31,003 nt of DNA from a virus (IMGVR_UViG_3300032242_002811:1-31003); one strand, 5' to 3'. Positions 1 to 24,638 are shown, counted from the first letter of the stretch. Made by a program: numbers and translations. Notes: a model not told the origin generated them from the sequence alone.

Positions 1-1053
1 TATCCAATATCAACGAAAGAAGCAGAACATCTATTTTTTATTAGCAAAAAAGAAATGCAAGATAAAATTTCTAAAGTAGGCTATGATATATTAGAATTAA
101 GATTTGATGATAATTTTTATGATTCTATTATTTCTTTTCAGCAAGAAACAAAAACATCTATGTTTTGGGTATTGAATACAGATTTAAAATTAACAGCAGA
201 TTTAACATATCTAGTACCCGATTATGATAAAGAATATGTACATCAATGGATTGCCTCTAATACAGATCATTCTAGATTAAATCTCATACCAAAAAAATAT
301 CCCATTTCTAAAAAAGAAGCAAATACATTATTCTTTATTAATAAAAAAGAAATGGAAGATAAGATATTTGAAGAAGTTTATGATATAATTTTTATATCAT
401 ATAATGAACCAAATGCGGATGAAAATTGGTTAAATCTTCTAAACAGATTCTCTCGGGCTAAACGTATACATGGGATCAAAGGCATTCACAATGCCCATAA
501 AAAAGCGGCTATCATATCAACTACTTCGATGTTTTGGGTAATAGATGGTGACTCTCAAATATTAGATAATTTTAATTTGGATTATATAGTTGATCCTTGG
601 GATAAAGATTCTGTATTTGTTTGGAAGAGTAAAAACCCAGTAAATGATTTAGTTTATGGGTACGGTGGAGTTAAATTATTGCCAAAAAAATTAACACTAC
701 AATTAGATATATCTACGGTTGATATGTCTACGTCTATTAGTAAGAAATTTAATCCAATGGATGGTATTAGTAATTTAACTATATTTAATACTGATCCTTT
801 TAATACATGGAAAAGTGCATTTAGAGAATGTGTTAAAATGTCAAGTAAAGTAATTGACGGACAAATTGAAGATGAAACAGAAAAGAGATTAGATGTTTGG
901 TGTACCATTGGATTTGATAAACCCTATGGAGAATATTCCATCAAGGGTGCGGTAATGGGGAAAGAATTTGGATTAAAATATTATGATAATAAATCTATGT
1001 TATCTAAAATTAATGATTGGGAATGGTTAAAAAGTGAATTTAGTAAACTCTAA
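1..1053 (+). CDS. Glycosyltransferase-like phage protein with internal repeats (5' partial)
   Basis: The reading frame is open from base 1, so the gene is truncated at the left edge; the first in-frame ATG (base 55) is probably internal. The visible part carries diverged repeats. A motif beginning YPIS, followed by LFFI and KKEM, occurs at base 1 and again at base 298, a period of 99 residues. A TSMFWV segment is likewise repeated near bases 151 and 523. The second copy is followed by an acidic DGD at bases 544-552, a plausible metal/nucleotide-sugar site. The segment around FISYNEPNADENW resembles conserved proteins of marine T4-like phages that I recall being labelled glycosyltransferase-like; that name is inference. 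The C-terminus (VWCTIGFDKPYG, then GKEFGLKYYDNK) looks intact. The next gene overlaps its last 20 bases. Confidence 0.6.
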   Translation, partial: YPISTKEAEHLFFISKKEMQDKISKVGYDILELRFDDNFYDSIISFQQETKTSMFWVLNTDLKLTADLTYLVPDYDKEYVHQWIASNTDHSRLNLIPKKYPISKKEANTLFFINKKEMEDKIFEEVYDIIFISYNEPNADENWLNLLNRFSRAKRIHGIKGIHNAHKKAAIISTTSMFWVIDGDSQILDNFNLDYIVDPWDKDSVFVWKSKNPVNDLVYGYGGVKLLPKKLTLQLDISTVDMSTSISKKFNPMDGISNLTIFNTDPFNTWKSAFRECVKMSSKVIDGQIEDETEKRLDVWCTIGFDKPYGEYSIKGAVMGKEFGLKYYDNKSMLSKINDWEWLKSEFSKL

Positions 1054-2026
1054 TTTTCAAAATATTCCTTGGGATAAGATAACCAGTTTTGGGCAAAAAA
1101 CTATGTTAGAAAATCCTTTATTTTCAGTTAGCTGGATATTAGGCAGATTTTGTAACTATAATTGTTCATATTGTTGGCCATATGCCCGTAGTGATAAGGT
1201 TGATCATTATGATCTAGATCTTTATAAGAAAACCATTGACGAGATAAAACAACAAGCAAGATCTAATGGATTTACAGATTTTCATTTTAGTTTTAGCGGA
1301 GGAGAACCGACTGCTTATAAAGATTTCTTAAATTTAATAGATTATTATGTTGATGATATTGAGTCTAAATATCAAAGTTTTCATATGACTACTAATTGTA
1401 GTCCTGGATTAAAGTGGTGGAATCGTTTAGTAAGCAGATTATCCCTGTTAGATAGAGCAAGTGTTACTGCTAGTTTCCATTCTGAATTCGCTAATGAAGA
1501 AGAATTTTCAGAGAAATTATTGTTTCTCATGGAAAATAATATTTTTGTAACTATTAATCAAGTAATGGTTCCTAATAGATTTTATGAGTATTACGAACGT
1601 TGTAATCGATTCTATAAAAGAGGAATTCCAGTAACATTAAAACCACAAAGCAATACTACGGCTACTGAAATAGTTAAAGGATATACGCCCAAAATGATAG
1701 ATATCATGCAGATTGGATTTCCACAACATATTAATGAGGATGCTGTTTATCAGATAAAATTATGTGATTCTGATGGAAATAAATATGATTTTGATCAAGC
1801 AGAAAGATTTAATTCTTTTGGATTTAATAAATTTAAAGGATGGCAGTGTAATAGCGGATATCAGAGTGTTATAATTCGAGGAAATGAAGTTAAACGATCC
1901 TATAGTTGTCATGACGAACCTTTGGGAACAATAGAAAAAGGTTTTAATTTATTTAATTCTCCTAAAATTTGTATAACTAATAGTTGCATAAGTTCAGCAG
2001 ATAGTAAGATACCAAAAAAATGTTAA
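1034..2026 (+). CDS. Radical SAM protein with C-terminal cysteine-rich domain
   Basis: Predicted radical S-adenosylmethionine enzyme of about 330 residues. The [4Fe-4S] cluster motif is CNYNCSYC (C40, C44, C47) and the SAM-binding motif is SGGEP (residues 88-92). The C-terminal part has at least five further cysteines (GWQC, YSC, KIC, NSC, KKC), suggesting an auxiliary Fe-S cluster. It is a clear paralogue of the radical SAM protein at 6294: both have GWQC, a Gly, then an Arg-x-x-Cys and an LG.I segment in the same order. The start is GTG at 1034, inside the end of the upstream gene, and the stop overlaps the next gene by 7 bases, so it sits in a translationally coupled operon. Radical SAM chemistry is well supported; the substrate is unknown. 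Confidence 0.88.
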   Translation: MNLVNSNFQNIPWDKITSFGQKTMLENPLFSVSWILGRFCNYNCSYCWPYARSDKVDHYDLDLYKKTIDEIKQQARSNGFTDFHFSFSGGEPTAYKDFLNLIDYYVDDIESKYQSFHMTTNCSPGLKWWNRLVSRLSLLDRASVTASFHSEFANEEEFSEKLLFLMENNIFVTINQVMVPNRFYEYYERCNRFYKRGIPVTLKPQSNTTATEIVKGYTPKMIDIMQIGFPQHINEDAVYQIKLCDSDGNKYDFDQAERFNSFGFNKFKGWQCNSGYQSVIIRGNEVKRSYSCHDEPLGTIEKGFNLFNSPKICITNSCISSADSKIPKKC

Positions 2027-2772
2027 ATTTTTTTAGAAATATAAAAAAAGATATAAGGAAGAGTGTATTTCTTCCCACAGATTCGTCTCCCGAAAAACAT
2101 TTTTGTGAGATTGATAGTCGAGAATTATTTCTAAAAAATTTAAAAACACAACCTGAGTCATGGAGATATAGAAATAAAGAAGTAACATATACAATAAATT
2201 CTCAAAGATATAGGACTATACCTTTTGAAAATATTGATTGGAAAGAATCTGTTGTATTATTTGGCTGTTCAACTGTATTTGGTGTAGGACTCAGTGACGA
2301 TGAGACTATTGATTTTTATTTAAGTGAAATATTAGGTGTACCTGTAATCAATATGGGGGTGATTGGATCATCTATAAATTACTCGTTACATAATTCTGTG
2401 ATACTAAATCAAGGATATCCGACTCCTAAAGCTGTTGTAAATATATGGACATTAATTGATAGATGTGTTTATTATCAAAATAATAAACCAATCAGTTATG
2501 GATCATGGAACACAAATAATGATGATTACTTTTTCCATTGGAACAAATATAATGATAATCCTCTTGTTAACGCAATATTTGCACAAATGATAAGTCGACA
2601 AATTTGGCAACCAAAGACGAAGTATTACGAAGCTACGTTTTTTCATGAAACTGCAAATGATCTTGATTGTGATTGTATAATTGATGTAGATAAAGCAAGA
2701 GATTTAATACATCCGGGTTATATGTCATCTAAATTAATGGCTAATTTAATATCTAAGAATTTAAAATTATGA
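2020..2772 (+). CDS. SGNH/GDSL-type hydrolase-like protein
   Basis: Predicted SGNH-fold esterase/acyl hydrolase of 250 residues. The block I nucleophile region is LFGCSTVFGVG (likely Ser84), the block II glycine region is NMGVIGSS, and a DLIH (D228, H231) near the C-terminus fits the block V Asp-x-x-His pair. The family removes or transfers acyl groups from sugars, lipids or peptides. It is a paralogue of the gene at 15705: both share an NLKT..SW.YR segment before the nucleophile and a PKA segment after it. It begins within the end of the upstream radical SAM gene and its TGA overlaps the ATG of the methyltransferase-like gene (ATGA). No signal peptide is seen, so it is probably cytoplasmic or virion-associated. 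The substrate is unknown. Confidence 0.75.
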   Translation: MLNFFRNIKKDIRKSVFLPTDSSPEKHFCEIDSRELFLKNLKTQPESWRYRNKEVTYTINSQRYRTIPFENIDWKESVVLFGCSTVFGVGLSDDETIDFYLSEILGVPVINMGVIGSSINYSLHNSVILNQGYPTPKAVVNIWTLIDRCVYYQNNKPISYGSWNTNNDDYFFHWNKYNDNPLVNAIFAQMISRQIWQPKTKYYEATFFHETANDLDCDCIIDVDKARDLIHPGYMSSKLMANLISKNLKL

Positions 2773-3380
2773 AGATTGATATTGATCATATATTATTTTG
2801 GATGGATGCTATACGCAATAGTTCCAACAAAGATCGAACATTGGAAAGTTTTTGGAAAGGTCAAATTAAGAGTAAGATTTGGTTAATAGATAATCTAATG
2901 ACATATGTTCCGTCAAGTGATATTACTATAGTAATACACGGAGGATGGAATGGTGTATTGGCTAGTTTATTATTTCAAACTACTTTGAAGATAAGCAAGA
3001 TAGTATCGATAGATATTGATAGATCTTGTGAAGATACTGCCAATACTATGAACAAGATAGAAGAAATAGAAGGTCGATTCCAAGCAGTTACTTGTGATAT
3101 GACAGAATATTACTATAAGTTTATTCCGAATATTGTTATAAACACTAGTTGTGAACATATCACACAAGAAACATATGAAAAGTGGCTATCTAATGTTCCA
3201 AAAGAATCTATAATAGTTTTACAGAGCAATGATTATTTTGAATTAAATGAACATATACGATGTGCTAATGATATAGATGAGTTTATTGAACAAAGCAAAA
3301 TTAAAGTGTTTAGTTATGATATATTAGAATTACCAAAATACAATCGATTTATGATAATCGGTAGAAGAGATAAGACGTAA
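2769..3380 (+). CDS. Class I SAM-dependent methyltransferase-like protein
   Basis: A 203-residue protein with the features of a Rossmann-fold methyltransferase. A glycine-containing first loop (IHGGWNGVLAS, about residues 56-66) is followed by an acidic strand end, SIDIDRSCEDTAN (about 79-91), which would bind the SAM ribose. Then come CDMT and a strand ending NTSCEHI, in the place of motif IV. The glycine loop is not the canonical E.G.G.G, so the assignment is family-level only. The start overlaps the upstream stop as ATGA, and the next gene starts just after its stop. The position between an SGNH hydrolase and radical SAM genes suggests it methylates an intermediate of the same pathway; this is inference. 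Confidence 0.65.
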   Translation: MKIDIDHILFWMDAIRNSSNKDRTLESFWKGQIKSKIWLIDNLMTYVPSSDITIVIHGGWNGVLASLLFQTTLKISKIVSIDIDRSCEDTANTMNKIEEIEGRFQAVTCDMTEYYYKFIPNIVINTSCEHITQETYEKWLSNVPKESIIVLQSNDYFELNEHIRCANDIDEFIEQSKIKVFSYDILELPKYNRFMIIGRRDKT

Positions 3381-3381
3381 A

Positions 3382-4356
3382 ATGTATAATTTAGTAGACA
3401 TTAAAACAGTACACTTAGAAATAACAAGTCGATGCCAAGCATCTTGTCCAATGTGTGCGAGAAACATACAAGGAGGGATTGAGAATCCATTTATTTCTAT
3501 CGATGAAATATCTAAAGAACAATTTATTACATGGTTTCCAGAAAGTTTTATTAAACAATTAGATAGATTATATATGTGTGGAAATCTGGGAGATCCTATA
3601 ATGGCTAAGGATACTTTAGAAATATTTGATCATATAAGATTTCTAAACAATGATATCATATTGAGTATGAATACGAACGGTAGTGCTAGGACATCAAATT
3701 GGTGGATAGAACTAGCAAAACTTAAAGTTAATATCCGATTTGGTATAGATGGATTAGCAGACACACATTCATTATACCGTATTGGAACTGATTGGAACAA
3801 AATTATTGAAAATGCTAAAACATTTATCAATGCTGGCGGTTATGCTGGATGGGATATGTTAATATTTAAACATAATGAACATCAAATTGATGATTGCAGG
3901 AAATTAAGTAATGATCTAGGATTTGAAGTTTTTACTTTAAAGGATACATCTAGATTTAAAAACGATCAATTAACAGTTATTGATCGTAAAGGAAAGACAT
4001 CTCATGTGCTTTATCCAACAGATAAGAGCAAAACTATAACTACTAAATTAGATTATAATGGACCATCAACTATTAACTGTAAATCTCTACAAGATAAAAG
4101 TTTATATGTAAGTGCTATTGGAAATGTTACACCTTGTTGTTGGTTAGATAATGAATGGTATAATCCAAATCATCCGAGTAGAATTGAATATGTGGATCTA
4201 TTTGACAATTATTTAAATTTACAAAAAATCTCATTAGAAGAGATATTTAATCAAGGTGTATTTAATAAAATAGAATCTACATGGAGAACATGTTCTCCAT
4301 TAAAAGAATGCACACGTCAATGTGGAAAGGTTGATCGATTTAATGAACAATTCTAA
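3382..4356 (+). CDS. SPASM-type radical SAM protein
   Basis: Radical SAM protein of 324 residues. The cluster motif is CQASCPMC (C18, C22, C25). The usual GGEP is replaced by GNLGDP, a common variant in SPASM-like maturases. The C-terminal SPASM-type cysteines are in INCKSL, TPCCW, TCSPLKECTRQC, which would bind auxiliary clusters. SPASM radical SAM enzymes typically modify peptides or proteins. The closest relative in the window is the gene at 11929-12975, which shares W..L, the DGL.DT..LYR.G segment and the HN.HQIDD segment. The twitch radical SAM gene follows with a 14-base overlap, the same arrangement as in the minus-strand copy. The target is unknown. Confidence 0.88.
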   Translation: MYNLVDIKTVHLEITSRCQASCPMCARNIQGGIENPFISIDEISKEQFITWFPESFIKQLDRLYMCGNLGDPIMAKDTLEIFDHIRFLNNDIILSMNTNGSARTSNWWIELAKLKVNIRFGIDGLADTHSLYRIGTDWNKIIENAKTFINAGGYAGWDMLIFKHNEHQIDDCRKLSNDLGFEVFTLKDTSRFKNDQLTVIDRKGKTSHVLYPTDKSKTITTKLDYNGPSTINCKSLQDKSLYVSAIGNVTPCCWLDNEWYNPNHPSRIEYVDLFDNYLNLQKISLEEIFNQGVFNKIESTWRTCSPLKECTRQCGKVDRFNEQF

Positions 4357-5644
4357 AACTATCTGTCCATTGCCTTGGATACATATCGCTACACGACCTA
4401 ACGGTGATGTTAGATTGTGTGCTACTGCTAACGCTAGCGGTAGTGGGAAACAAGAAGATAAAGAAGCAGGATTAGTAACAAACAATGGTACCCAATTAAA
4501 TCTCAGACAGCATACTATAGAAGAAGTATGGAATAGTGATTATATGAGGAATGTACGTAAAATAATGTTAGAAGGTAATCGCCCCGATAGTTGTCTTAAA
4601 TGTTATAGAGAAGAAGATATTGGTATTAACAGTAAAAGATTATGGGAAACTGCCGAATGGAAAGATCGTCTTGATATTGAATCCATAGTAAATCAAACGA
4701 CTGATAATGGGAGTCTACCTGTTCAGATCCCTTATTTTGATCTTAGACTTGGAAATTTATGCCAATTAAAATGCATCATGTGTTCACCTCACGACAGTTC
4801 TGGTTGGATCAAAGATTGGAAGATACAAAATCCAAATTATAAACATCCTGAATTAAGGTATGATCAGCAATGGGCAATTGATTATGATTATACTTGGTAT
4901 AAGAAAGGATCATTTATTAATTCAATAAAATCTCAGGTGCAAAACATTAAGGAATTATATTTTGCCGGAGGTGAGCCATTATTAATACCTGAGCATTATA
5001 AGATTCTTGAATTTATGGTTGACACTAATAATGCTAAGAATTGTATATTAAGATACAACTCTAATGGATTAGAAGTATCTACTAAACTATTAAATTTATG
5101 GCACTATTTTAAAGAAGTTAGATTTAATCTTTCTATAGACGCTGTTGGTGATAAGAATGATTATATTAGATATCCATCTAGGTGGGAAGATTTAATAGCG
5201 ATTGCTAAGAGATTGGATAATACAGAGGATCATATTATTATTAACATCGCATGTGCTGTGCAATTATTAAATGTTATGTATCTCGATGAATTAATAGAAT
5301 GGAAATTAGATCAAAAATTTAAAAAGATTAATCTAGCACCATTTGGCGGAGGATTGATAGGGATGCATTTGGTTACATATCCTAGTTACTTAAATATAAA
5401 AGTATTACCACCTCATTTAAAACAACTTGCTAAAGAAAAAATAGAAAAATTTTTATCTCACTATAATGAAGATGAATTTAATAATTCAATTTATGGTAGA
5501 CAAAGATGGGAAGGAATGCTAAAATATATGATGTCCGAAGATTATAGTGATAAGTTAGACATAACTGTTGAATATCTTGAAGCATGTGATAAGACTAGAG
5601 GAACAAATTTTAGAGAGATTTTTAAGGAGTTAAATTCTTTATGA
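4343..5644 (+). CDS. Radical SAM protein with N-terminal twitch domain
   Basis: A 433-residue radical SAM enzyme with an N-terminal twitch-like cysteine domain (C8, C26, C84, C87; ICPLPW..., RLC, SCLKC), then the radical SAM core with CQLKCIMC (C140, C144, C147) and a canonical AGGEP. The order twitch-then-core matches the phage/marine group annotated as N-terminal twitch radical SAM proteins. I chose ATG 4343 because AAAGG lies 12 bases upstream and the first twitch cysteine follows closely; a GTG at 4322 in the same frame is possible but lacks a ribosome-binding site. It overlaps the SPASM gene upstream by 14 bases and the oxygenase gene downstream by ATGA. Its minus-strand paralogue at 10901-11932 is interrupted by a stop codon. 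Confidence 0.88.
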   Translation: MNNSKTICPLPWIHIATRPNGDVRLCATANASGSGKQEDKEAGLVTNNGTQLNLRQHTIEEVWNSDYMRNVRKIMLEGNRPDSCLKCYREEDIGINSKRLWETAEWKDRLDIESIVNQTTDNGSLPVQIPYFDLRLGNLCQLKCIMCSPHDSSGWIKDWKIQNPNYKHPELRYDQQWAIDYDYTWYKKGSFINSIKSQVQNIKELYFAGGEPLLIPEHYKILEFMVDTNNAKNCILRYNSNGLEVSTKLLNLWHYFKEVRFNLSIDAVGDKNDYIRYPSRWEDLIAIAKRLDNTEDHIIINIACAVQLLNVMYLDELIEWKLDQKFKKINLAPFGGGLIGMHLVTYPSYLNIKVLPPHLKQLAKEKIEKFLSHYNEDEFNNSIYGRQRWEGMLKYMMSEDYSDKLDITVEYLEACDKTRGTNFREIFKELNSL

Positions 5645-6297
5645 CGGAAGATGAAAAAGAAAGAGCTATCTTATGGAATAGTTTAACTAATTTAGGAAGT
5701 TATGCTAAGTTAAATTTGAGGATAAATGAATATGATGTTAAAGATCAGTTAGTTCAATTTAATAAAAATTGGTGTCCATATAATCAAAAAAAAGATATAG
5801 TTAATAATAGATGGGGTCTTCCTATTACTAGTCATAGTGGCGATGTTATGGATAACTATCATCTTAATAGTTTTGGATATATGAAGAAATATCATAATGT
5901 TGAAATGAAAGAAGAAAATTTTAATGTTCCAACAGAAGTGTATTATGCTATTCCTGAACTAGCTAAATTAGTCGATGAATTTTCTCCCAACATAGGTAGA
6001 GTACATTTATTACGTGTAGATCAGGGAGGATACTTCCCACCTCATAGAGATTTTGCAGGTTTAGCTCCTGAGTATTTTAGATTATTATGTGTCTTTGGTA
6101 ATTGTTCAGATTTTAATTATGTACATTTATTACATGATCAAGTCTTTAGACCAGAAAGATGCCATCTTTATTTTGTTAACTTTCAACTTAATCATAGTGT
6201 TTTTAGTTTTAGTAATAATCTTTATGCGTTAATATTAACTGTTAAATTAAATCAACAAACACACGATCTTATTATTAAACATTCGATGGCACAATGA
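5641..6297 (+). CDS. Fe(II)/2-oxoglutarate oxygenase, aspartyl/asparaginyl hydroxylase type
   Basis: A 218-residue protein resembling the Asp/Asn beta-hydroxylase branch of the Fe(II)/2-oxoglutarate oxygenases. The double-stranded beta-helix metal motif is PPHRDF (H135, D137) with a distal His in NHSVFSF (H185). The last strand, LYALILTVKL, lacks the Arg that normally follows about ten residues after the distal His and anchors 2-oxoglutarate; Lys202 might substitute. That makes it the least canonical of the five oxygenases in the window. It is translationally coupled on both sides (ATGA at 5641 and at 6294) and lies between two radical SAM genes, implying a shared substrate. Hydroxylation is the family reaction; the target is not visible. 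Confidence 0.72.
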   Translation: MTEDEKERAILWNSLTNLGSYAKLNLRINEYDVKDQLVQFNKNWCPYNQKKDIVNNRWGLPITSHSGDVMDNYHLNSFGYMKKYHNVEMKEENFNVPTEVYYAIPELAKLVDEFSPNIGRVHLLRVDQGGYFPPHRDFAGLAPEYFRLLCVFGNCSDFNYVHLLHDQVFRPERCHLYFVNFQLNHSVFSFSNNLYALILTVKLNQQTHDLIIKHSMAQ

Positions 6298-7208
6298 GGA
6301 TTGAATACAAAGACTCTAAAAAAAATAATTGGTTTTTAATAACTTGGGATCTATCTAATAAATGTAATTACCGATGTAATTATTGTCCAAGTATGTTCCA
6401 TGACGGCAGTTCAGGTTGGCCTGATATTGTAAAAGTTAAAGAATTTATTAAAAAAATTAACAAGTTGTTACCTAACAAAGATATATGTTTTAGGATAAGT
6501 GGAGGAGAACCTACCTATTGGAAGCATTTCTTAGAATTTGCTAAAGGTGTTAAGGAGTATAACAATTCATTTACTTTCTTAACTAATGCTAGTCGAGATA
6601 TTTTATACTTTAAAGAAATTAATCCGTTCGTTGATGGATTAATTTTAAGCTATCACCTACAGTATTCTAATATCGATAATTTTATAGAAATTATCGATAT
6701 CATAGAATGTCCTGTTGCTATTAATTTGATGATGATTCCAACAGAGTTTGATCAACTATTAAATATTGCAGAGAGATTATATAATAATGGTGCTGCTGTT
6801 TGGCCTAAAATTCTATTAGATAAAACTAGTGATATTGATATTATTACAAATAATACTATTGAATATAGTTTAGAACAGAAACAAATTATACGAGAATGGA
6901 AATATTTTAGGAAGATAGATGATTCTAAGATCCATAGAGGCGAATTATTGTTAGATGATGTTGAGATTACAGCAAATGATTTAATACTCAGTGGTAAGAA
7001 TTCTCATAAAGGTTGGCAATGTTGGGCAGGGTTAGATATGATTAATATAGATTTCTGGGGAAATATATATCGAGCTAATTGTGAACAAGGTGGAAATTTA
7101 GGTAATATTGAAAACTTTAAATTACCAATAGATACTCTAATTTGTAACAAAGAATTATGTGCTTGTTTAAGTGATATTTATTTAAGAAAATCTAAACCTT
7201 TATTATGA
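6294..7208 (+). CDS. Radical SAM protein with C-terminal cysteine-rich domain
   Basis: A 304-residue radical SAM protein: CNYRCNYC (C24, C28, C31), SGGEP (residues 69-73) and a C-terminal cysteine set in GWQCWAG, ANCEQG, ICNKELCAC that probably holds an auxiliary cluster. It is a paralogue of the gene at 1034, matching it in the GWQC/G/R..C/LG.I order, so the first + block contains two of this subtype plus the SPASM/twitch pair. It starts by ATGA overlap with the upstream oxygenase and is the last gene of the + block. Its final 31 bases overlap the end of the convergent aminotransferase gene. The substrate is unknown. Confidence 0.87.
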   Translation: MRIEYKDSKKNNWFLITWDLSNKCNYRCNYCPSMFHDGSSGWPDIVKVKEFIKKINKLLPNKDICFRISGGEPTYWKHFLEFAKGVKEYNNSFTFLTNASRDILYFKEINPFVDGLILSYHLQYSNIDNFIEIIDIIECPVAINLMMIPTEFDQLLNIAERLYNNGAAVWPKILLDKTSDIDIITNNTIEYSLEQKQIIREWKYFRKIDDSKIHRGELLLDDVEITANDLILSGKNSHKGWQCWAGLDMINIDFWGNIYRANCEQGGNLGNIENFKLPIDTLICNKELCACLSDIYLRKSKPLL

Positions 7209-11173: not shown

Positions 11174-11200
11174 AACTTGTATAGTTGGACCAACTGATAT

Positions 11201-12975: not shown

Positions 12976-13019
12976 ATATTATATATTCATATAAAATAGT
13001 AGATAGGTAAAAATAACAT

Positions 13020-13027: not shown

Positions 13028-13035
13028 TTGATAAC

Positions 13036-15248: not shown

Positions 15249-15718
15249 TTAACATTTATTCTAAAAAAAATTTTAAAATAATGTTAAATAATCGGCGTAT
15301 TGACGATGATACTGTTTCTAATTTTCTAAATGAATATTTTATATCAATATCGCCACAAGACGGTCCTGATAAGGAAGAAATTTTCAAATTTCAACATACA
15401 AACGTACTAACTTTATTTTTTGATGATGTATTAACAGATTCGTTTAAAAGCGGAGAACCTGTTGTTAGAGGATTAATATTTGCTAAAGCAATGACGATTA
15501 GTCAAGCAACTGAATCTATTAAATTTATAAAAACTATACCAAAAGATTCTAAAATACATATACATTGTATGGCTGGTAAATCTAGAAGTGTAGCTTTTGG
15601 TTTATTTTTAACCGAATGGTTTAATTTAGATGTAGAGGAATTTTTAAAAAAAACAAATCCTATCTATAATACATATGTATATAATTTACTAAAGGAAGCA
15701 TCGATTGTCAATCATTAA
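15245..15718 (+). CDS. Dual-specificity-type protein tyrosine phosphatase
   Basis: A 157-residue protein with the cysteine phosphatase signature IHCMAGKSRS: C108, then five residues, then R114. This forms the phosphate-binding loop, in which Cys is the nucleophile. The acidic DDVLTD segment about 45 residues earlier could provide the general acid Asp. The length matches the small dual-specificity/archaeal-type PTPs. I chose ATG 15245 because it makes an ATGA overlap with the preceding stop and has GGAAAG just upstream; TTG 15233 is an alternative. Together with the kinase at 10453 it could set a phosphorylation state of a shared small molecule or protein. No such target is visible. Confidence 0.8.
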   Translation: MINIYSKKNFKIMLNNRRIDDDTVSNFLNEYFISISPQDGPDKEEIFKFQHTNVLTLFFDDVLTDSFKSGEPVVRGLIFAKAMTISQATESIKFIKTIPKDSKIHIHCMAGKSRSVAFGLFLTEWFNLDVEEFLKKTNPIYNTYVYNLLKEASIVNH

Positions 15719-17263: not shown

Positions 17264-17843
17264 GTTAAAAATTAAAGTTGATATAGATAAATTAAGAAAT
17301 TATTATAGTGTTATAGAAAAAAATTATGAACATCTATGTTGGAGATTTAATAGTTTAGTAGATCAATATGACGAAGGAGTAGGCGGACATAGAGTTAAGG
17401 ATATGTTTGGATGGGCAATTGAAAGTAATGCAATGGACATAACAAAACCATGTCCACCTTATAACATTGGTTTAAAAACATTATCTTATTATAGAGATAC
17501 TGAAATGGTATTCGGAATAATAAATTCTTTTAAAAAACAATTTCCTTTTGCCCATGGGTACTCTCTTGCTACACACCCACCTGGAACATTTATAAATTCT
17601 CACATTGATACAGACGATTGGATTAAAATCCATGTTCCGATCTATACATCGGATAATAGTTGGTTTTATTTTGAAAAAGATGAAAAATATCATATGGAAG
17701 CAGACGGAAGCTTATATCTCGTAAATACTATGATTTCACATGGGACAGATCATTGTGGTAATAGTAATAGAACACATTTAATATTTAAAATACCATCTGA
17801 TTATAGTGAACTTGTACAACAAATGGACGGAATTATTATATGA
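17244..17843 (+). CDS. Fe(II)/2-oxoglutarate oxygenase, aspartyl/asparaginyl hydroxylase type
   Basis: A 199-residue oxygenase, the shortest of the five. Metal ligands are probably H120 and D122 (NSHIDT) and H166 (MISHGTD), with R176 (NRTHLIF) for 2-oxoglutarate. The MEADGSLYLVNT strand matches IPADGWVYLVNT of the preceding gene. I chose ATG 17244 with AAGGA eight bases upstream, rather than TTG 17241 immediately before it. The stop overlaps the halogenase start (ATGA), so the two proteins should be made together. Its N-terminal domain is reduced compared with the neighbour. The substrate is unknown. Confidence 0.77.
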   Translation: MLNNLIKLKIKVDIDKLRNYYSVIEKNYEHLCWRFNSLVDQYDEGVGGHRVKDMFGWAIESNAMDITKPCPPYNIGLKTLSYYRDTEMVFGIINSFKKQFPFAHGYSLATHPPGTFINSHIDTDDWIKIHVPIYTSDNSWFYFEKDEKYHMEADGSLYLVNTMISHGTDHCGNSNRTHLIFKIPSDYSELVQQMDGIII

Positions 17844-19369
17844 AAGTATGTATTGTTGGTGGAGGAACTGCTGGATGGATTACATTAGCTTATATTGTTT
17901 CAAAACTAGATATAGATGTTACTATTATACACAGCAATGAAATAGATATAATCGGTGTTGGGGAAAGTACTAGTCCTACTATTAGACAAGTTGCTGATGC
18001 TGTTGGCGTTGATGAGTATACTTGGATGAGAGATGCCAAGGCAACATTTAAGTATGGAATTGATTTTATAGATTGGAACAATATTGGTTCTCACTGGTTC
18101 CATTCTTTTGAAGGTGAAATTTTAGAACAAGCATTTACGAATCCTGTAGTTGATTTCGGAAAAGATACTTTTGAACAAAAATTAACTAGTATTGATTATT
18201 TCTTAAAGCTTCGACAGAATGATGCTAGTTTTGATATAGATAAGTTTAATAATATGCATGGGCCAATGTGGCATATTCTTGGAAACGGTAAAGGACACTA
18301 TAATACTCAAAGACAATGTAATATTAGTAAATATGCCGGGTATGCATATCATGTTAGTGCATACGAGTACAGTCAATGTCTAAGAAAACACACACCTAAA
18401 GAAAAATTCACAGAGATTGTTGATACTATTATTGATGTTGAAATTGATGACACAGGGGTTAAGAGCCTACGAACAAAAAGTGGAAATATTATAACTAGTG
18501 ATATTTTTATTGACTGCACCGGTATGAAGAGATTGTTAATTGGAAAGCTTACGGGATTTACTAAATTTGATAAGTTAAAGAATAATCGAGCTATATTTGG
18601 CGGCGTTGATAGATATCAAAATTATAGAGCAACAACTCAAGCTCATGCCCAGGACGCAGGATGGATTTGGAGTATTCCTACATGGGGACGAATGGGATCT
18701 GGTTACGTCTATTCTAGTGATTATATAACCGACGATAAAGCTTATGATACTATTGTTAAGTTCTGGGCTGATAAAGGTTACAAGTGGATTGAAAATAACC
18801 GTGTAAGTTTTACTAGTGGACGCTGTGCAGACCTAGCTATTAAGAATGTATTTGCAAATGGTCTTGCTCAAAGTTTTATAGAGCCTTTAGAAGCAACTAG
18901 TATCATGATTACATGTTGGACTGTTATTAGATTTGTTGAAATTTATAATCGAAATAACAGATGGGATGATAGATCTGCAAGAATGTTAAACACTATGATG
19001 GCGCAATTCTTAGATAATACTAAATCTTTTGTTGGATATCACTATCAATTGTCAGAGAGAATCGATACTGATTATTGGAGAGATCAAAAAAATCCTGATG
19101 TTATACAAGAAGTTAACGATATTATTAGTTCTAAATTGCGTAGTCCTATGTTACAGAAAGGACAAACATCTATTAATAAGTTCAATTGGACTAGTTTGTT
19201 AATAGGATTTAATAAACCTTTTAATAATCGATTAGAAGATATTTCTCAGGAACATATAGAAAATTATCTATTTTTCGTTAAACAAGCCGAAGAAAATTAT
19301 AAGTTTCTTGTTAGGAATAATCCATTAAATGAACAAATTATTAAAACTATACATTTAAAATCCGATTGA
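17840..19369 (+). CDS. Flavin-dependent halogenase (tryptophan halogenase family)
   Basis: A 509-residue halogenase with the family landmarks. GGGTAGW at residues 7-13 binds FAD. FKYGIDF has the lysine (K71) equivalent to the catalytic Lys of PrnA. WIWSIP at 275-280 is the WxWxIP motif that separates halogenases from monooxygenases. IEPLEATS (E348/E351) is at the place of the active-site Glu. These enzymes use reduced FAD, O2 and halide to make a hypohalous species that the lysine relays to an electron-rich substrate; reduced flavin must come from the host, as no reductase gene is seen. Phage-borne members are known (VirX1 of a cyanophage). It is coupled to the oxygenase upstream by ATGA and its end overlaps the convergent GNAT-like gene by 15 bases. 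Confidence 0.93.
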   Translation: MKVCIVGGGTAGWITLAYIVSKLDIDVTIIHSNEIDIIGVGESTSPTIRQVADAVGVDEYTWMRDAKATFKYGIDFIDWNNIGSHWFHSFEGEILEQAFTNPVVDFGKDTFEQKLTSIDYFLKLRQNDASFDIDKFNNMHGPMWHILGNGKGHYNTQRQCNISKYAGYAYHVSAYEYSQCLRKHTPKEKFTEIVDTIIDVEIDDTGVKSLRTKSGNIITSDIFIDCTGMKRLLIGKLTGFTKFDKLKNNRAIFGGVDRYQNYRATTQAHAQDAGWIWSIPTWGRMGSGYVYSSDYITDDKAYDTIVKFWADKGYKWIENNRVSFTSGRCADLAIKNVFANGLAQSFIEPLEATSIMITCWTVIRFVEIYNRNNRWDDRSARMLNTMMAQFLDNTKSFVGYHYQLSERIDTDYWRDQKNPDVIQEVNDIISSKLRSPMLQKGQTSINKFNWTSLLIGFNKPFNNRLEDISQEHIENYLFFVKQAEENYKFLVRNNPLNEQIIKTIHLKSD

Positions 19370-19963
19370 TTTTTTTCTTTCTTCATAATATTGATCAAGA
19401 TGTAATTTCCAAATACTTTGTCTAGTATTATATAATTCAAAATCATCATAAATTCTTGTAAACACTCCTCTTTTTTCCATCATAGGCATTGCTATTTGAT
19501 CCAGGAATTGGCTTCTTGAGAAATATTTTTTATTTTTTAAGTTATTAGTACTAGTATAAAATTCAGCCAATGGATTATTGTTTAGGATAAACTGTACTTG
19601 CCAATCTAATACATAACTCATTTGATATCCAGATTTAAAAAAATCTCTAGTAAGAGATTTACCCATCCCATATCCAGGAAGTTGGGCACCTCTAAATAAA
19701 CATCTCCATGCTTTGGAACTTATTTCTGGAAGTTTATGTACTCCTGCTATATTCCATATTTGTTTTTTGTTATAATCATATCCAATAAAATATTGCCCGT
19801 AAGGCATTTTTATTTGATCTAATTTAATTGATTTAAAACTTTCATTATTAACAATTCTTAACTCTTTACACCTATTGCAAAAGATATTTAGATCATTATA
19901 ATCGCATTCCTCTAATAATCGAAATTCAAGATGGGGATTGTTTGGTATTTTTGTAGGTTCCAT
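19355..19963 (-). CDS. GNAT-like acetyltransferase family protein (tentative)
   Basis: A protein of about 202 residues with an overall GNAT-like pattern. An N-terminal FRLLEECDYNDL segment is followed by a beta-strand region (YFIGYDYNKKQIWNIAGVHKL). RGAQLPGYGMGKSLTRDFF then resembles the Q/R-x-x-G-x-G acetyl-CoA loop, though the spacing is irregular. The C-terminal third is Arg/Lys/Tyr rich and not recognised. I prefer ATG 19963, which abuts the upstream stop; TTG 19975 in the same frame would overlap it by 11 bases. Neither has a clear ribosome-binding site. It is the last gene of the minus-strand block and converges on the halogenase. Acyl transfer is an inference. Confidence 0.5.
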   Translation of the reverse strand: MEPTKIPNNPHLEFRLLEECDYNDLNIFCNRCKELRIVNNESFKSIKLDQIKMPYGQYFIGYDYNKKQIWNIAGVHKLPEISSKAWRCLFRGAQLPGYGMGKSLTRDFFKSGYQMSYVLDWQVQFILNNNPLAEFYTSTNNLKNKKYFSRSQFLDQIAMPMMEKRGVFTRIYDDFELYNTRQSIWKLHLDQYYEERKKSIGF

Positions 19964-19964
19964 G

Positions 19965-20807
19965 TTAAATATCAAAATTAACTAAGTTTAGATCTTGATC
20001 AGTATTTTCTAAATATGATTTAACAACTAACTTACAAAACTCTTCAACTCTATTACCAATATTTCCCATCGGAATCATGTGTATACGATCTTGATCTGTA
20101 AAATTTGTTACCCAGTGCAATTTACTTATATTATGTAAAAAGAATTTTCCTTCTTTCCATGGTACTTTTCCAAATCCTTCAAACCAAGTTTCGCATCCTT
20201 CGGGATGTATTATTGACATATTAACAGCAACGCCCATAGTTAAAATATTCCAAAATAATGATTGTTCTACAGACATATCTCTATGTACGCCAATATATCC
20301 TGATGCTCCTAGTTTTAAAGGACGCACTCTTGACCATTTTTCGATTGGAAAATCTTTCCAAAATTTAGTTATCGTCGGACATTGATCAGCAATTTCTGTC
20401 CAATGATAGGGTAAAGAACTTTCATCAACATCATCTTCAACATAATCTTCATAATGTAGTGTATGTTTTGGACCTAATCCGTGAAATGTACATGATTGAT
20501 AAAGAGTTTGATATGGTTGATCTGGATGAGCGATAAAATAATGGTTTATATCTTGTATTTCTTTTTTCCATATCTCTAAATCAATATCGATATCTAATTC
20601 TAAATATGCCCAATTATTAAAGTTATCAACTAATAACCAATTACCAACTTCTAAAACTGTTGCTCCTTTAAGATGATCAGGGAGCAATGGTAATACCTGT
20701 TTACAATTCTTATTTGCTAACATCATGCGGTCAATTTCAAGTAAATCTTTAGCATTAGGAGTTACTTGTAATTTTTGTTCAGGTAATTTAATTGGTCCTT
20801 GATACAT
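19965..20807 (-). CDS. Fe(II)/2-oxoglutarate oxygenase, aspartyl/asparaginyl hydroxylase type
   Basis: A 280-residue oxygenase: GVHRDM (H175, D177), KLHWVTN (H231) and DRIHMIPMG (R241) give the full metal and co-substrate set. It is a paralogue of the gene at 13036 with an extra N-terminal part of about 40 residues and an acidic loop (HYEDYVEDDVDES) before the core. The ATG has AGGAA eight bases upstream. It is the fifth oxygenase of the window and the only one in the last minus-strand block. It lies 13 bases downstream of the SGNH gene at 20821, so it is in the same operon as the adenylating enzymes. Confidence 0.8.
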   Translation of the reverse strand: MYQGPIKLPEQKLQVTPNAKDLLEIDRMMLANKNCKQVLPLLPDHLKGATVLEVGNWLLVDNFNNWAYLELDIDIDLEIWKKEIQDINHYFIAHPDQPYQTLYQSCTFHGLGPKHTLHYEDYVEDDVDESSLPYHWTEIADQCPTITKFWKDFPIEKWSRVRPLKLGASGYIGVHRDMSVEQSLFWNILTMGVAVNMSIIHPEGCETWFEGFGKVPWKEGKFFLHNISKLHWVTNFTDQDRIHMIPMGNIGNRVEEFCKLVVKSYLENTDQDLNLVNFDI

Positions 20808-20820: not shown

Positions 20821-21651
20821 TTAAAGATCTCGAAGTTCTTTGATTACTTTATCAAACTTTAAATTTCCAATTAATCTTGTCTCTAAATTAAATTTTTCTG
20901 GACAAAATTCGAAAAAAATCCATTCTTCGTTAAAGAAATTTTCTTTAATTAATATATTATTTTTCCAACCAGTATCTATATCTTTAACTTTACCAGTTTT
21001 AATTAATTCTATTAATTTATCATGTAGCATTAAGTGATTACTGTAACATAAATGATTGGCTCTTGGATCGGATATATGTTGGAATACTTTATTATATTTT
21101 TCATTTGAGATTTCAGACGAACTAATAGAATATAACGATTTTTTAAATATTAGTAGGTTTGACCAATTATAATTAAATGCCGGAAGAACTTCGTCAAACG
21201 CAGGTATCACTATAATTTTAGTTCCTAAATTAGTTGCTATCTGATTAAGATAATGTAACCAACATGATGTAAATCTTATTATGTTTATTGTATCATGTAG
21301 ATATGCATAATAATCTCTAAATGCCGGTATTGCTTTCTTTACCTTATTAGTAATTAAATTTGGCACTTCTGAAAAATTAAAATTATAAGAATTTATTTCT
21401 TGGGTAAATTCGGGTAGATCTGGAAAAAAATAAGTTCTATCTGGATGACTTAATACTATTATTATTTGATCCCCTGAATTAAATTTTAATAGATCATTTT
21501 CCCATCGTTCAAATGTTTGTAAAATACCATATCGAGGATATCCTCTATCTATATAGTTTAAATTTAACGTATTTGCTAGATTTTTAATCCAACTTTTACC
21601 ACCGTGATTAAAGACATAACTATCACCGTAAAAAAAAATATTCTCATTCAT
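20821..21651 (-). CDS. SGNH/GDSL-type hydrolase-like protein
   Basis: A 276-residue protein starting almost directly with the block I motif FFYGDSYVF (Ser11), as in many SGNH hydrolases. DRGYPRYG follows at the block II position, VLSHPDRTYF is a candidate block III region, and DPRANHL holds a candidate late Asp/His pair, spaced more widely than D-x-x-H. It is not obviously a close paralogue of the other two SGNH genes. It follows the core-only adenylating enzyme after four bases. In that setting a thioesterase-like or acyl-releasing role would be reasonable, but no carrier protein is seen. Confidence 0.65.
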   Translation of the reverse strand: MNENIFFYGDSYVFNHGGKSWIKNLANTLNLNYIDRGYPRYGILQTFERWENDLLKFNSGDQIIIVLSHPDRTYFFPDLPEFTQEINSYNFNFSEVPNLITNKVKKAIPAFRDYYAYLHDTINIIRFTSCWLHYLNQIATNLGTKIIVIPAFDEVLPAFNYNWSNLLIFKKSLYSISSSEISNEKYNKVFQHISDPRANHLCYSNHLMLHDKLIELIKTGKVKDIDTGWKNNILIKENFFNEEWIFFEFCPEKFNLETRLIGNLKFDKVIKELRDL

Positions 21652-21655: not shown

Positions 21656-22303
21656 TCAAGATTTCCATGTATTATTTAATTTATCTATTTTTCTTCTTAT
21701 GAATATTTTATTTTTAACATCAAAAATATCACCTGTAGGACTACCATTAATAATACATTCTCCATCCTCTGAAAATTCTACTGAATTTCCGTTTAACGGT
21801 GTAAAATCAAACTCTGATGAATTATTTCCAATAAATACTGGAGGAGGGAATTCAGTCATTCCGTACCAATTAGCAACTGTCTTAACTCCTTTAGATAAAA
21901 GAGTATCTATCATATCTTGGGAAATAAGTTGGCTACCTGTAACCATATACCTTACGTTACTCATATCTAGATTATTCCACTCTTTAGTTTTTTCTAGTAT
22001 TTCTATATGCCGTGGAATTAAGGAAATATATGTTGGTTTGAATTGATTAAATAATTTTATATAGTTATATGGATCGAAATTTAAAGATATCAACGTAGCT
22101 CCTGCTTCTAATGCCGGAATTGCAGTGACAGTATAATGTGCTATCACATTTGCAGGATATACATCTAGTACTATATCGTCAGATTTAAGTCCTATTGTTT
22201 TAATAGATTGTGCTATATTTTTTTGTAAAGATACGCAACTATGACTTACTAATTTAGGTTCTTTAGTACTGCCACTTGTATATACAATTATATTTCCAAC
22301 CAT
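21656..22303 (-). CDS. Adenylate-forming enzyme, core domain only
   Basis: A 215-residue protein that matches only the central part of the AMP-binding (ANL) superfamily. YTSGSTKEPK (residues 8-17) is the phosphate loop, with Lys in place of the usual Gly after the Thr. VLDVYPANVIAHYT and the NWYGMTEFPPPV segment (YGMTE at 147-151) are the A4/A5-type motifs. It lacks the N-terminal about 140 residues and nearly all of the C-terminal lid domain with the catalytic lysine. The start and stop fit tightly between neighbours, so it does not look recently broken. It may work with the full-length homologue at 23232 or be a degenerate binding protein. Confidence 0.72.
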   Translation of the reverse strand: MVGNIIVYTSGSTKEPKLVSHSCVSLQKNIAQSIKTIGLKSDDIVLDVYPANVIAHYTVTAIPALEAGATLISLNFDPYNYIKLFNQFKPTYISLIPRHIEILEKTKEWNNLDMSNVRYMVTGSQLISQDMIDTLLSKGVKTVANWYGMTEFPPPVFIGNNSSEFDFTPLNGNSVEFSEDGECIINGSPTGDIFDVKNKIFIRRKIDKLNNTWKS

Positions 22304-22305
22304 AA

Positions 22306-23235
22306 CTAAATCCTTTTATGCCATGGTAATACTTCAAATCTTTTATCTATCTCTAAATCTAATAGTTTTTTTATATCGTTTGTTTGATAATAATTAGCAT
22401 CGGCTAGCGTACAATCAATATAAAAATTTTTATTAGAAGTATACAATACATTAAAAAACTCTTTTTGTAAAGCAAATCTTGTTTTTATATCATATAAAAT
22501 TGCAGTAGGTAGATAATTGAAACAATTAGTTACACTCCAGAATATCTTATTTTTGTTAATTTCTTTTACAAAACTCTTAACATCTTCAATATTGAATATA
22601 TCTAATACTTTAAATTCAAATTCAATATTGTTTATTTTTTTAATATTATTAATATTTTTAAAGACATCGTTATCAATATCTTCGATCATACTTTTTCGAT
22701 GATGAGATAATTGATTTATATCAACTTCTACCCCATTTTTCCAGTTTTCTATTATTTTTTTACTAATTTCGATTGAAATAGCACTTATATCAACAACATA
22801 AACTTTGCTGCCTTCCGGCATATCTAGCATATTTGGTATAGTTAATGGATTTAATCCAGCAGCAGAGCAAATACAACAATCAAATTTTCCTTTTATTTCT
22901 TCTGGAATTAATAGATTTTCTGTATTTTTAAAAAAATGTACTTGTAGATTTGTAATTTTGTTGACATCACTTATCCCATGTATATTAGACACATCTAATA
23001 TACTTTGAATCTTTGTTAAATCTTTTTCCAAAGATGATAATAAATTAAAATTAAATAATGATCCAACATAATTAATATAAGCATCGTCGTGAATTTTTTC
23101 ATAAGAATACTCAATCTTAAACCCTTTGTCTATTAAAAAAGAAGTTATGAATTCTGTTAAATTTTTAGACAGAATATTAATTGATGGATATATAGGTTCT
23201 CGATGTATCCATCTAAATTTTTTATTATTAGTCAT
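22306..23235 (-). CDS. Methyltransferase-like Rossmann protein
   Basis: A 309-residue protein. CICSAAGLNPL, then SKVYVVDISAISIEISKKI, looks like a Rossmann strand-loop-helix with the acidic residue (VVD) that would hold the SAM ribose, and FKVLDIFN and WSVTNCFNYLP follow at the positions of later strands. The first loop lacks the G-x-G-x-G pattern, so methyltransferase activity is tentative. The same segments occur in the C-terminal half of the 497-residue protein at 13755, so this is a recurrent domain in the island. It is coupled to the adenylating enzyme upstream (ATGA-type overlap) and lies between two adenylation genes. Confidence 0.55.
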   Translation of the reverse strand: MTNNKKFRWIHREPIYPSINILSKNLTEFITSFLIDKGFKIEYSYEKIHDDAYINYVGSLFNFNLLSSLEKDLTKIQSILDVSNIHGISDVNKITNLQVHFFKNTENLLIPEEIKGKFDCCICSAAGLNPLTIPNMLDMPEGSKVYVVDISAISIEISKKIIENWKNGVEVDINQLSHHRKSMIEDIDNDVFKNINNIKKINNIEFEFKVLDIFNIEDVKSFVKEINKNKIFWSVTNCFNYLPTAILYDIKTRFALQKEFFNVLYTSNKNFYIDCTLADANYYQTNDIKKLLDLEIDKRFEVLPWHKRI

Positions 23236-24638
23236 GATATTTTTATTACTTCTTTAATCTGATCGTATTCCCATGATCCTTTGGTTTCAATAATCTCATC
23301 AACACGATATGAATAACCTAATGTTTTATCGATATAATCGTTAATTTCATTGAGAGTAATTACCATCCCTTTATCTAAAGTTAATAATAGTAATAATTTG
23401 TTATCTTTTTCAAGCAGATGGATAGATTTAAATAATTGATTTTTTTCATTTCTATATGATGATAATGTTGAATAATAATTTCCTATACTAATCAAAACAT
23501 CATTTCTTCTAATAGTTTTATTGGCTCTTCCGACAAACCATATATCGTTGTTATCAACTGTTACGAGATCTTTAGTATCATAATAACCGTTGTTGTTACA
23601 ATTTTTTTCTATGTCATGTCCTTTAGCAAGCCCGTCTCCTTTTATAGTTAATGTGTTGTTTTCACTAATAACTACATCCCAAGAATTTACTAAATCACCT
23701 AAATTATTATTTCCATCTTTTGAATGTGTATTAACATTTTCGGCAGTAATTTTATAAACATAAACTGGCGGCGGCGTTTCCGATAATCCATAAACATTAT
23801 ATAACGTTTTTACTTTTTTTTCAATTAACAAGGTTTCTATAAATATTTGTGGTAATTTAATACCTCCCGAAATAACTTCTTCTAAAAACTCAAAATTTGT
23901 TTCATTCCATCTAGGTAACTTTTTCATATTTTCTATTTGATCATGGAACAATAATGTTTTATTTGGTTTATAATCGATAATAGCATCTAATGAAGATGTT
24001 GGATCCCATGTATCTAACGCAATAGTAAAACATCCAGATATAATAACAGGCAAAATCTGTATAGTGATAACTCCGACATGATTTAATGATGTAAATAATA
24101 ACACAGTATCGCTATCTTTGTAGAACATTTCAGAAGCTTTAAATGTGCTAAACATTAAACTTTTATGTGTATGATAGAAAACTTTTGGAGCACCAGTACT
24201 TCCGGATGTTTTTGTAATTAATAATTTGTCATCTTCATTTATATGGAATTCTATATCTTTTTTTGGATCATAATTATAGACATCATCCATTACAAATTTT
24301 TCTATATTCCAGGCGGATTTTTCACCGTTTACTCTCTCAAATAAAATTTTAATATCTAATGATTTTGGACTAAATGCATCTGTTTCTTCTAATATTATTT
24401 CCATTCTAGGAATCGCAGCATATATTAGTTTGCGTTCAGCAGCAGCAATAAACAATGATAGGTGTTCACTTGATTGTAAGTCGTTAACAGAAAAAATATC
24501 CCCAGCATTTAAATTAACAGAATCAAATACGGTATGCCAACGATTGATTAACTCAATCATCTCTTTTTTGTTTATAACCTTATTTTTGAATTTTAGTTTG
24601 AAATTATTATGTATTATATTTCTATCAAATACTTTCAT
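23232..24638 (-). CDS. Adenylate-forming enzyme (AMP-binding/acyl-CoA synthetase-like)
   Basis: A 468-residue ANL-superfamily enzyme. TKTSGSTGAPK (residues 142-152) is the phosphate-binding loop. NVYGLSETPPPV is the A5 motif. GYYDTKDL contributes the ribose-binding Asp of A7. GRANKTIRRNDVLIS is the A8 hinge. The C-terminal lid is short and ends in IKEVIKIS; the usual PRT..GK catalytic lysine motif is not clear. Expected reaction: activation of a carboxylate to an acyl-AMP, possibly with transfer to CoA or an amine. It starts the last minus-strand operon of the island and overlaps the stop of the downstream methyltransferase-like gene's start. No carrier protein is in view. Confidence 0.85.
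   Translation of the reverse strand: MKVFDRNIIHNNFKLKFKNKVINKKEMIELINRWHTVFDSVNLNAGDIFSVNDLQSSEHLSLFIAAAERKLIYAAIPRMEIILEETDAFSPKSLDIKILFERVNGEKSAWNIEKFVMDDVYNYDPKKDIEFHINEDDKLLITKTSGSTGAPKVFYHTHKSLMFSTFKASEMFYKDSDTVLLFTSLNHVGVITIQILPVIISGCFTIALDTWDPTSSLDAIIDYKPNKTLLFHDQIENMKKLPRWNETNFEFLEEVISGGIKLPQIFIETLLIEKKVKTLYNVYGLSETPPPVYVYKITAENVNTHSKDGNNNLGDLVNSWDVVISENNTLTIKGDGLAKGHDIEKNCNNNGYYDTKDLVTVDNNDIWFVGRANKTIRRNDVLISIGNYYSTLSSYRNEKNQLFKSIHLLEKDNKLLLLLTLDKGMVITLNEINDYIDKTLGYSYRVDEIIETKGSWEYDQIKEVIKIS

Follow-up and report, generated by a model that had tools for sequence, protein, structure and literature searches.

A block-exchanged island of radical enzymes among the tail genes of T4-like phages: a candidate late-expressed, sugar-centred tailoring pathway

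Introduction

The viral record IMGVR_UViG_3300032242_002811:1-31003 contains an island of radical S-adenosylmethionine (SAM) enzymes, Fe(II)/2-oxoglutarate (2OG) oxygenases, a halogenase and other soluble enzymes, which raises the question of what a phage builds with such a set and on what it builds it. The window, by which we mean the whole stretch of 31,003 bp in this IMG/VR record, is open at both ends and is cut on its left inside the first island gene, g01. Phage backbone occupies its right end from about 24.9 kb on. Phage islands rich in radical SAM genes have been on record since 2010, with no function assigned, and were described as probably non-essential or metabolic (PMC2853527). A preliminary description of the window had suggested a phage-encoded modification pathway and had named independent occurrence of the gene families in other phages as the observation that would speak for unrelated cargo. 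Our leading reading, held tentatively and at a little short of even confidence, is that the island is an exchangeable, late-expressed, sugar-centred tailoring pathway of a T4-like phage, the carrier being likely a tail-fibre or virion protein.

Results

Conservation of the island among phages

Larger relatives have a DNA polymerase of the T4 kind as well as baseplate wedge proteins, and the window is therefore assigned to a T4-like myophage lineage; the island is phage-borne as initially described. We found that 15 phage contigs (the window, the 119-kb contig G057 and 13 extra loci) share a module in nearly fixed gene order, called type A here, which comprises roughly 17 genes within a conserved set of about 17-25 enzymes. 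G057 keeps the window's order from g01 to g26, followed by fibre and backbone, at identities of 23-76% (most 37-72%). The 13 extra loci are contigs from a g17 scan, with g17 60-63% identical, and all of them carry g10-g11-g12-g14 and g16-g17-g20-g21 in the window's order. The mean identity in these loci was 63% for g11 and 71% for g16, the best conserved module gene; g23 and g26 were each found in 12 of the 13, g18 in 11 and the halogenase gene g22 in nine. Fourteen other phage contigs show this order as well, so that the gene set is not a product of chance, and since many phages have the families together in a conserved order we regard them as one functional unit rather than as independent cargo.

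The left part of the island is conserved more widely, its core recurring in dozens of phages. The core g01-g04-g05 was found in eight close records, and in every close record that shows the left half the island opens with g01, followed by g04 and g05 and often accompanied by g02. An alignment scan of viral contigs with g01 gave at least about 600 matches, and the best 80 loci were compared with 80 backbone-centred control loci. Around g01, twitch-domain radical SAM genes were present in 61 of these best 80 loci (3 of the controls), glycosyltransferase family 8 (GT8)-like genes in 52 (9), the g05 family in 35 (4) and g04 in 30 (4). Radical SAM family c2 was not enriched (20/80 versus 15/80 in the control), and therefore the co-occurrence with g01 rests on families c1 and c3, g04 and GT8. 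AMP-binding genes were considered as a general feature of the site and rejected, since among 48 other close records only G005 has them; being so rare there, they mark the type-A module and not the site. Searches of isolate phages gave no matches to g01, g11, g16 or g17, and no isolate phage genome matched the window in a near-identity search.

One subgroup of relatives (G016, G014, G017) encodes a conserved 172-aa protein between g04 and g05 (family c68, e.g. G016:21490-22008), which by eye resembles NlpC/P60-YiiX hydrolases.

Insertion site and block exchange

The order at the site is fixed in the relatives: tail fibres, GT8, GT8, g01, island, fibre, ThyX. To the left lie a baseplate wedge gene, a giant tail protein gene, fibres, the two GT8-like genes and a second g01 copy, and the right flank consists of an Mtd_N fibre, ThyX, small proteins, a von Willebrand factor A (vWA) protein and MoxR. 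The content between these flanks varies from relative to relative, so that we are dealing with a hypervariable island within the structural/tail region, in the company of tail fibres.

The island is replaced as a whole, and this exchange is independent of the backbone. The backbones of the window and G003 are 91% identical at the nucleotide and 97% at the protein level, yet a nucleotide match is absent from about 5.3 to 26 kb, and reciprocal best hits, at 44% identity, are limited to 8 of the 27 island genes. A block of about five radical SAM genes is thus replaced as a unit between these close relatives. Conversely, for the window and G057 these backbone proteins are about 51% identical, but 16 island pairs are found at 53%, and for G003 and G006 the backbone value is 77% and that of 21 island pairs 73%. 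The GC content is 29% in the island versus 43% in the backbone.

Many window genes are absent from the sister islands, whose genes were assigned from clustering and visual inspection, with Pfam covering only part of them. The G003 island represents a second type with a PP-loop protein (c40), 2OG oxygenases (c24, c25, c48), a kinase (c20) and a GNAT protein (c22), which is common, in varying part, to G003, G005, G006, G011, G071, G078 and G080. Each island encodes between zero and three proteins with transmembrane-like segments, and therefore no export system of the flippase/polymerase type is encoded in the island.

A third island type was seen in G067 (L215, 1-14600), with g01, g04, GNAT, a halogenase, an AMP-ligase-like fragment, a 681-aa B12-type radical SAM protein, 2OG oxygenase and fibre. 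In G006 a tail-associated protein of 5518 aa, which may be a giant of the VrlC kind, is encoded at positions 66193-82749, upstream of the fibre and GT8 genes.

Late-promoter motif

A de novo search of upstream regions returned NATAAATA, a T4-type late-promoter word, upstream of 72 genes versus 1.4 expected. Among genes with an intergenic upstream region, it precedes 48% of the structural, 28% of the island and 6% of the ThyX-side genes. For island versus backbone the difference was significant (Fisher p=0.0004), with 17 occurrences versus 3.0 in shuffles. In the window the word precedes, among others, g16 and the fibre gene g30. The divergent intergenic region between g15 and g16 (12976..13035, plus strand) contains CATAAATA, a word of the T4-like late-promoter type, a short distance upstream of g16.

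The word TATAAATA was considered as island promoter and rejected, as it is absent from the window's operon starts and depleted (2 occurrences versus 11.5 expected, with similar depletion in eight relatives), and the enriched word is the degenerate NATAAATA. The depletion of TATAAATA, together with the concentration of NATAAATA upstream of late-type genes, suggests selection against stray late promoters.

The g01 protein and the sugar link

The first island gene, g01 (1..1053), is the left border of the island and a member of its conserved core; its 5' end is cut by the contig edge. The AlphaFold2 model of its product (pLDDT 83.6) aligns over residues 123-284 to B4GALNT1, WrtF, ThuS/SunS and nucleotidyltransferases with Z values of 9-12 (maximum 11.9), and in Foldseek the top 32 matches were glycosyltransferases, at low TM scores. 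The motif D182xD184 is invariant in 24 aligned sequences. These properties describe a GT-A nucleotide-sugar fold with a DxD motif, and the protein is called glycosyltransferase-like here. In G006 a UDP-glucose dehydrogenase gene lies between the two g01 copies.

The preliminary description had stated that no scaffold synthase was present. In this form the statement finds no support: the GT-A-fold protein is the first island gene, and GT8-like genes and UDP-glucose dehydrogenase adjoin the island in relatives. The missing scaffold enzyme is thus partly an effect of the contig edge.

Enzymes encoded by the island

Genes g01 to g08 and g16 to g22 are on the plus strand, g09 to g15 and g23 to g38 on the minus strand. 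They are tightly packed, as described before, with intergenic gaps of at most 60 bp.

Each of the six radical SAM proteins contains CX3CX2C and matched PF04055 above cut-off in the Pfam scan. Four intact genes and a broken one had been counted initially; the broken gene was recovered, but five are intact (g02, g05, g06, g08, g15). Two of them belong to family c2, namely g02 (1034..2026; PF04055 E=1.6e-12, CNYNCSYC, a C-terminal Cys cluster, 64% identity to the G057 orthologue) and g08 (6294..7208; E=3.5e-10). Core gene g05 (3382..4356), which has homologues on bacterial chromosomes, and g15 (11929..12975) encode family c3 radical SAM/SPASM proteins matching PF04055 and SPASM. The twitch-domain protein g06 (4322..5644) scored 408.9 bits with NF033640 against a cut-off of 170. 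The reading frames g14 (11201-11941) and g13 form, on read-through, a single twitch-domain gene (10901..11941) interrupted by an in-frame stop; g14 reaches 187.2 bits with the same profile, and G057 and 13 other contigs have the gene uninterrupted. The stop may reflect a pseudogene, a variant or a sequencing error. We also considered g08 as a prokaryotic viperin (pVip) or other anti-phage radical SAM enzyme and rejected this, since NF038283 gave 36.9 bits against a cut-off of 180 and the PADLOC match covers the general radical SAM core only.

The five 2OG oxygenases of the preliminary description were confirmed, and HxD is present in all of them. PF05118 matched above cut-off for the Asp/Arg-hydroxylase-family protein g16 (13036..13758; E=8e-11), g20 (16562..17263; E=3e-12), g21 (17241..17843; E=1e-5) and g24 (19965..20807; E=1e-7). 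The 2OG-Fe(II) oxygenase-like g07 (5641..6297) has an HRD motif and no Pfam match, and is assigned by its 32% identity to an Asp_Arg_Hydrox protein of Pelagibacter phage Mosig. The halogenase also stood: g22 (17840..19369) is a predicted flavin-dependent Trp halogenase with a PF04820 match of E=7e-90 (302.5 bits, cut-off 21) and the motifs GxGxxG and WxWxIP, and it matches the solved Trp 5-halogenase 8fov (E=1e-64) and phage VirX1 (6qgm, E=9e-38). The same is true for the two adenylate-forming, AMP-binding proteins, g26 (21656..22303; PF00501 E=1e-19), which has just 215 aa, and g28 (23232..24638; E=4e-18).

Assignments to the SGNH, kinase, pyridoxal phosphate (PLP) and methyltransferase classes are weaker than those to the 2OG, halogenase and AMP-binding classes: motifs or clustering agree with what had been described, but an over-threshold profile match was found for none of them. 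The SGNH-hydrolase-like proteins are g03 (2020..2772), which has a weak GDSL match (E=0.004) and clusters with g19 (15705..16568) and two G011 proteins, and g25 (20821..21651), which has a GDS motif. The putative aminoglycoside/choline kinase g12 (10453..10914) is named after its HGDxxxxN motif and the PLP-aminotransferase-like g09 (7178..8098) after a motif only, with no Pfam or NCBIfam match; relatives of g09 occur in three sister islands and in L241. Core gene g04 (2769..3380), with relatives in eight records, encodes a class I methyltransferase-like protein 29% identical to a Mosig homologue annotated as methyltransferase, and g27 (22306..23235), with a relative in L205, is possibly methyltransferase-like. 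For the dual-specificity-phosphatase-like g18 (15233..15718; phrog_5614) the motif HCX5RS is present as HCMAGKSRS, but its DSPc match (E=1e-4) is below cut-off. The acetyltransferase-like g23 (19355..19975) has no profile match.

The beta-propeller-like g10 (8095..9243) and its paralogue, the kelch/beta-propeller-like g11 (9233..10456; 22% identity to g10, Kelch E=1e-4, below cut-off), were absent from the preliminary description, as was the glycosyltransferase-like g01. The product of g17 (13755..15248), which adjoins g16 in relatives, has no assigned family and its AlphaFold2 model (pLDDT 46.5) is unusable. Gene g29 (24642..24857) encodes a small DUF6356 protein with a hydrophobic stretch (PF19883 E=4e-15).

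The statement that a precursor peptide is lacking holds insofar as none fits into gaps of this size; the window is a fragment cut inside g01, and absence from the whole phage is not implied. No carrier protein, nonribosomal peptide synthetase (NRPS), polyketide synthase (PKS) or terpene synthase was seen in the Pfam scan of the window, and the scan of all window proteins gave no amidinotransferase.

Counterparts on bacterial chromosomes

Bacterial homologues of g05 were found mostly in Bdellovibrionota and Defluviimonas isolates, on contigs of up to 2.4 Mb, and many of them adjoin g01, g04 and other radical SAM family members. The core of g01, g04 and radical SAM genes occurs in loci L224-L247, which come from Bdellovibrionota, Defluviimonas and other genomes. 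Glycosyltransferase family 2 (GT2) genes lie within about 10 kb of the core in three of ten genomes (G084, G089, G093), and in Defluviimonas a UDP-glucose-dehydrogenase-like gene, read from the sequence, adjoins g05. The chromosomal clusters resemble the phage island in that glycosyltransferase-like, methyltransferase-like and radical SAM families lie near one another, some of them beside GT2 and sugar-nucleotide genes. In contrast, the halogenase, the kelch protein and the g16/g17 block were not found there. Single bacterial genomes hold up to 8-10 g05-family matches each (G090, G093).

Discussion

What might the island make?

In the pathway that we propose, g01, together with the GT8-like genes and the UDP-glucose dehydrogenase that adjoin it in relatives, would build or attach a sugar, and the soluble radical SAM, 2OG-oxygenase, halogenase, methyl-, acetyl- and acyl-activating enzymes would modify this sugar or its carrier. 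The most likely carrier would be the phage's own tail-fibre or virion protein. The virion would then wear a lineage-specific chemical coat, swapped by recombination as bacterial O-antigen clusters are. The module is conserved, occupies one site among tail genes, has late-type promoter motifs and a GT-A-fold core protein and encodes almost no membrane proteins. Because of the position, the late promoters and the scarcity of membrane proteins, a virion-protein carrier is the most economical choice, and a glycan substrate, a virion location and a role in diversity of adsorption, receptor use or evasion may be inferred. The modification pathway suggested in the preliminary description therefore stands as one functional unit, with a virion protein or a surface glycan as the best remaining target, although the sequence does not choose among virion protein, host glycan and host metabolite.

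A bolder version is also conceivable, although we consider it rather improbable: T4-like phages may possess 'chemotype' cassettes that are interchangeable, each a complete pathway, expressed late, by which the phage decorates its own tail fibres or virions with glycans that are radical-tailored, hydroxylated and possibly halogenated. Such cassettes would be swapped as blocks between phages, and their core would be shared with predatory and other bacteria.

Several observations weigh against a sugar-centred pathway directed at the virion. Fibre C-terminal sequences showed no clear co-variation with island type, so that no specific carrier is singled out. The g01 model aligns to the nucleotidyltransferases IspD and MobA about as well as to glycosyltransferases, and the sugar step is drawn from fold and neighbours. 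The late-promoter motif was also found on the reverse strand of 13 of 61 island upstream regions, probably due to many of these regions being divergent, and the AT-richness of the island bears on the same motif. Finally, similar pelagimyophage genes were read by their authors as host O-chain modification (PMC7029224).

This last interpretation, which covers the GT8 and other glycosyltransferases of analogous islands, leads to the main rival explanation. Here the enzymes would alter, in the infected cell, a sugar or lipid of the host lipopolysaccharide or capsule, and this would hide receptors from other phages or help release. The turnover of the island resembles that of O-antigen loci, and counterparts of the core lie on chromosomes of Bdellovibrionota and Rhodobacteraceae, some of them beside GT2 genes. 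However, almost no membrane proteins are encoded and a flippase or polymerase is absent from all islands, the location is inside the tail-fibre region, and the late-type promoter motif is common to tail genes and island. Superinfection exclusion is expected to be early. Host-envelope remodelling is thus a serious alternative, but we consider it doubtful.

Direct modification of protein side chains without a glycan, either on a virion protein or on a precursor peptide encoded elsewhere (as in ribosomally synthesized and post-translationally modified peptides or QhpD/QhpG-like systems), appears unlikely. SPASM and twitch-domain radical SAM enzymes, both of which are present here, typically mature peptides or proteins, PF05118 enzymes hydroxylate protein Asp/Asn in other systems, and g22 is weakly similar to the protein-modifying flavoenzymes GoxB, QhpG and LodB. 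The NCBIfam matches that point in this direction were all far below cut-off except NF033640, a precursor reading frame does not fit the gaps of the window, and the only invariant neighbours are glycosyltransferase-like and methyltransferase-like.

A soluble pathway of small-molecule chemistry or auxiliary metabolism, directed at a host metabolite, is in our view quite unlikely. Halogenase, acyl-activating, PLP-like, kinase and PP-loop (c40) genes would suit such chemistry, and cyanophages commonly have single halogenases and 2OG oxygenases, but the Pfam scan of the window showed no carrier protein, NRPS, PKS or terpene synthase, and a location among tail genes with swapping between near-identical phages is unusual for genes of host metabolism.

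That unlinked cargo or packaging filler piled up at a recombination-prone site is very improbable: a broken radical SAM gene, the deviating GC content and the many window genes absent from sister islands would suit it, but it is contradicted by the gene order, which stays nearly fixed across 15 phage contigs although the proteins have diverged strongly, and by the strong co-occurrence with g01. Most improbable of all is DNA hypermodification, in which radical SAM, PLP, kinase and acetyltransferase enzymes would have modified thymidine as their substrate; ThyX adjoins the island and the enzyme classes overlap those of known hypermodification islands, but ThyX is a conserved backbone gene present without this island, four of the oxygenases match PF05118, and the island has late-type motifs and is tied to tail genes.

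Relation to known systems

The closest published counterpart is the 'host recognition cluster' (HRC) of pelagimyophages, which contains tail fibres, GT8s and radical SAM cassettes (PMC7029224). Both are hypervariable tail-region islands of T4-like phages, and glycosyltransferases and radical SAM genes are represented here by the GT-A fold of g01, GT8-like genes in 52/80 loci and the radical SAM enzymes. The island of the isolate Mosig EXVC030M (MT647606, 55-74 kb) encodes Asp_Arg_Hydrox, aminotransferase, methyltransferase, acetyltransferase and MoaA-like proteins. In contrast, the published HRC lies between VrlC and the neck gene gp14, whereas the right flank here is fibre, ThyX, vWA and MoxR, and in the type-A module of the window g11, g16 and g17 are without isolate match. 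Freshwater pelagimyophages were reported to be without radical SAM genes.

Campylobacter phages CP220 and CPt10 carry an interchangeable module of five radical SAM genes (PMC2853527). There, too, a five-radical-SAM block is replaced as a unit between close phages, beside genes for nucleoside-diphosphate-sugar-transferase-like proteins and a tail fibre, but an amidinotransferase is present there and not here, the 2OG/halogenase set is not annotated there, and the radical SAM identity is only about 23%. Cyanophages carry PrnA-type Trp halogenases and sets of 2OG-FeII oxygenases (PMC3037559). These cyanophage halogenases (PrnA/VirX1) belong to the same family as g22 (25-31% identity), and multiple 2OG oxygenases in T4-like phages are a further likeness; unlike in cyanophages, the single halogenase here sits in a nearly fixed 17-gene module with five to six radical SAM enzymes. 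In mycobacteriophages, phage glycosyltransferases are described as decorating virion proteins (Freeman 2023, cited in PMC12619734). Going by that description, the island may act in a similar way. We know of no radical SAM or 2OG tailoring in mycobacteriophage virion glycosylation.

As far as our searches and the literature covered go, what is new is the type-A module, whose marker genes are unmatched in isolates, together with the core, the exchange as a block, the link to late promoters and the counterparts on bacterial chromosomes. The island is now a defined object with a fixed core (g01-g04-g05), an ordered module, a fixed site, late-type promoters and block exchange, and therefore the question of what these phages build, and on what, can be put to a direct test on virions. 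The findings also indicate a reservoir of radical enzymes, so far uncharacterised, for tailoring carbohydrates or proteins.

Source and backbone of the window

The virus infects bacteria and its habitat, read from the collection, is probably fresh water; the records compared are metagenomic. The right border of the island is g30 (24872..26101), a tail fibre with Mtd_N (PF18454) and collagen repeats (PF01391) that matches tail-fibre phrogs and has the late-promoter motif upstream. Among the fibres compared, the Mtd_N N-terminus is conserved and the remainder varies, and a long run of collagen-like GYxGS repeats is unique to g30. Hydroxylation of collagen repeats by the 2OG enzymes was rejected as a general mechanism, since relatives with such islands are without long repeats and only the window's fibre has them.

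Profiles and synteny in relatives identify g31-g38 (26154..30896) as backbone genes for ThyX, small proteins, a DUF2201/vWA protein and a MoxR-like ATPase. The vWA protein has numerous relatives (453 stretches), and the closest ones keep the g31-g38 block in order, with the vWA protein 73-97% identical. The vWA gene, g36, is overlapped by a long antisense open reading frame (29300-29821, plus strand) that is open in most relatives and is probably a by-product of codon constraint.

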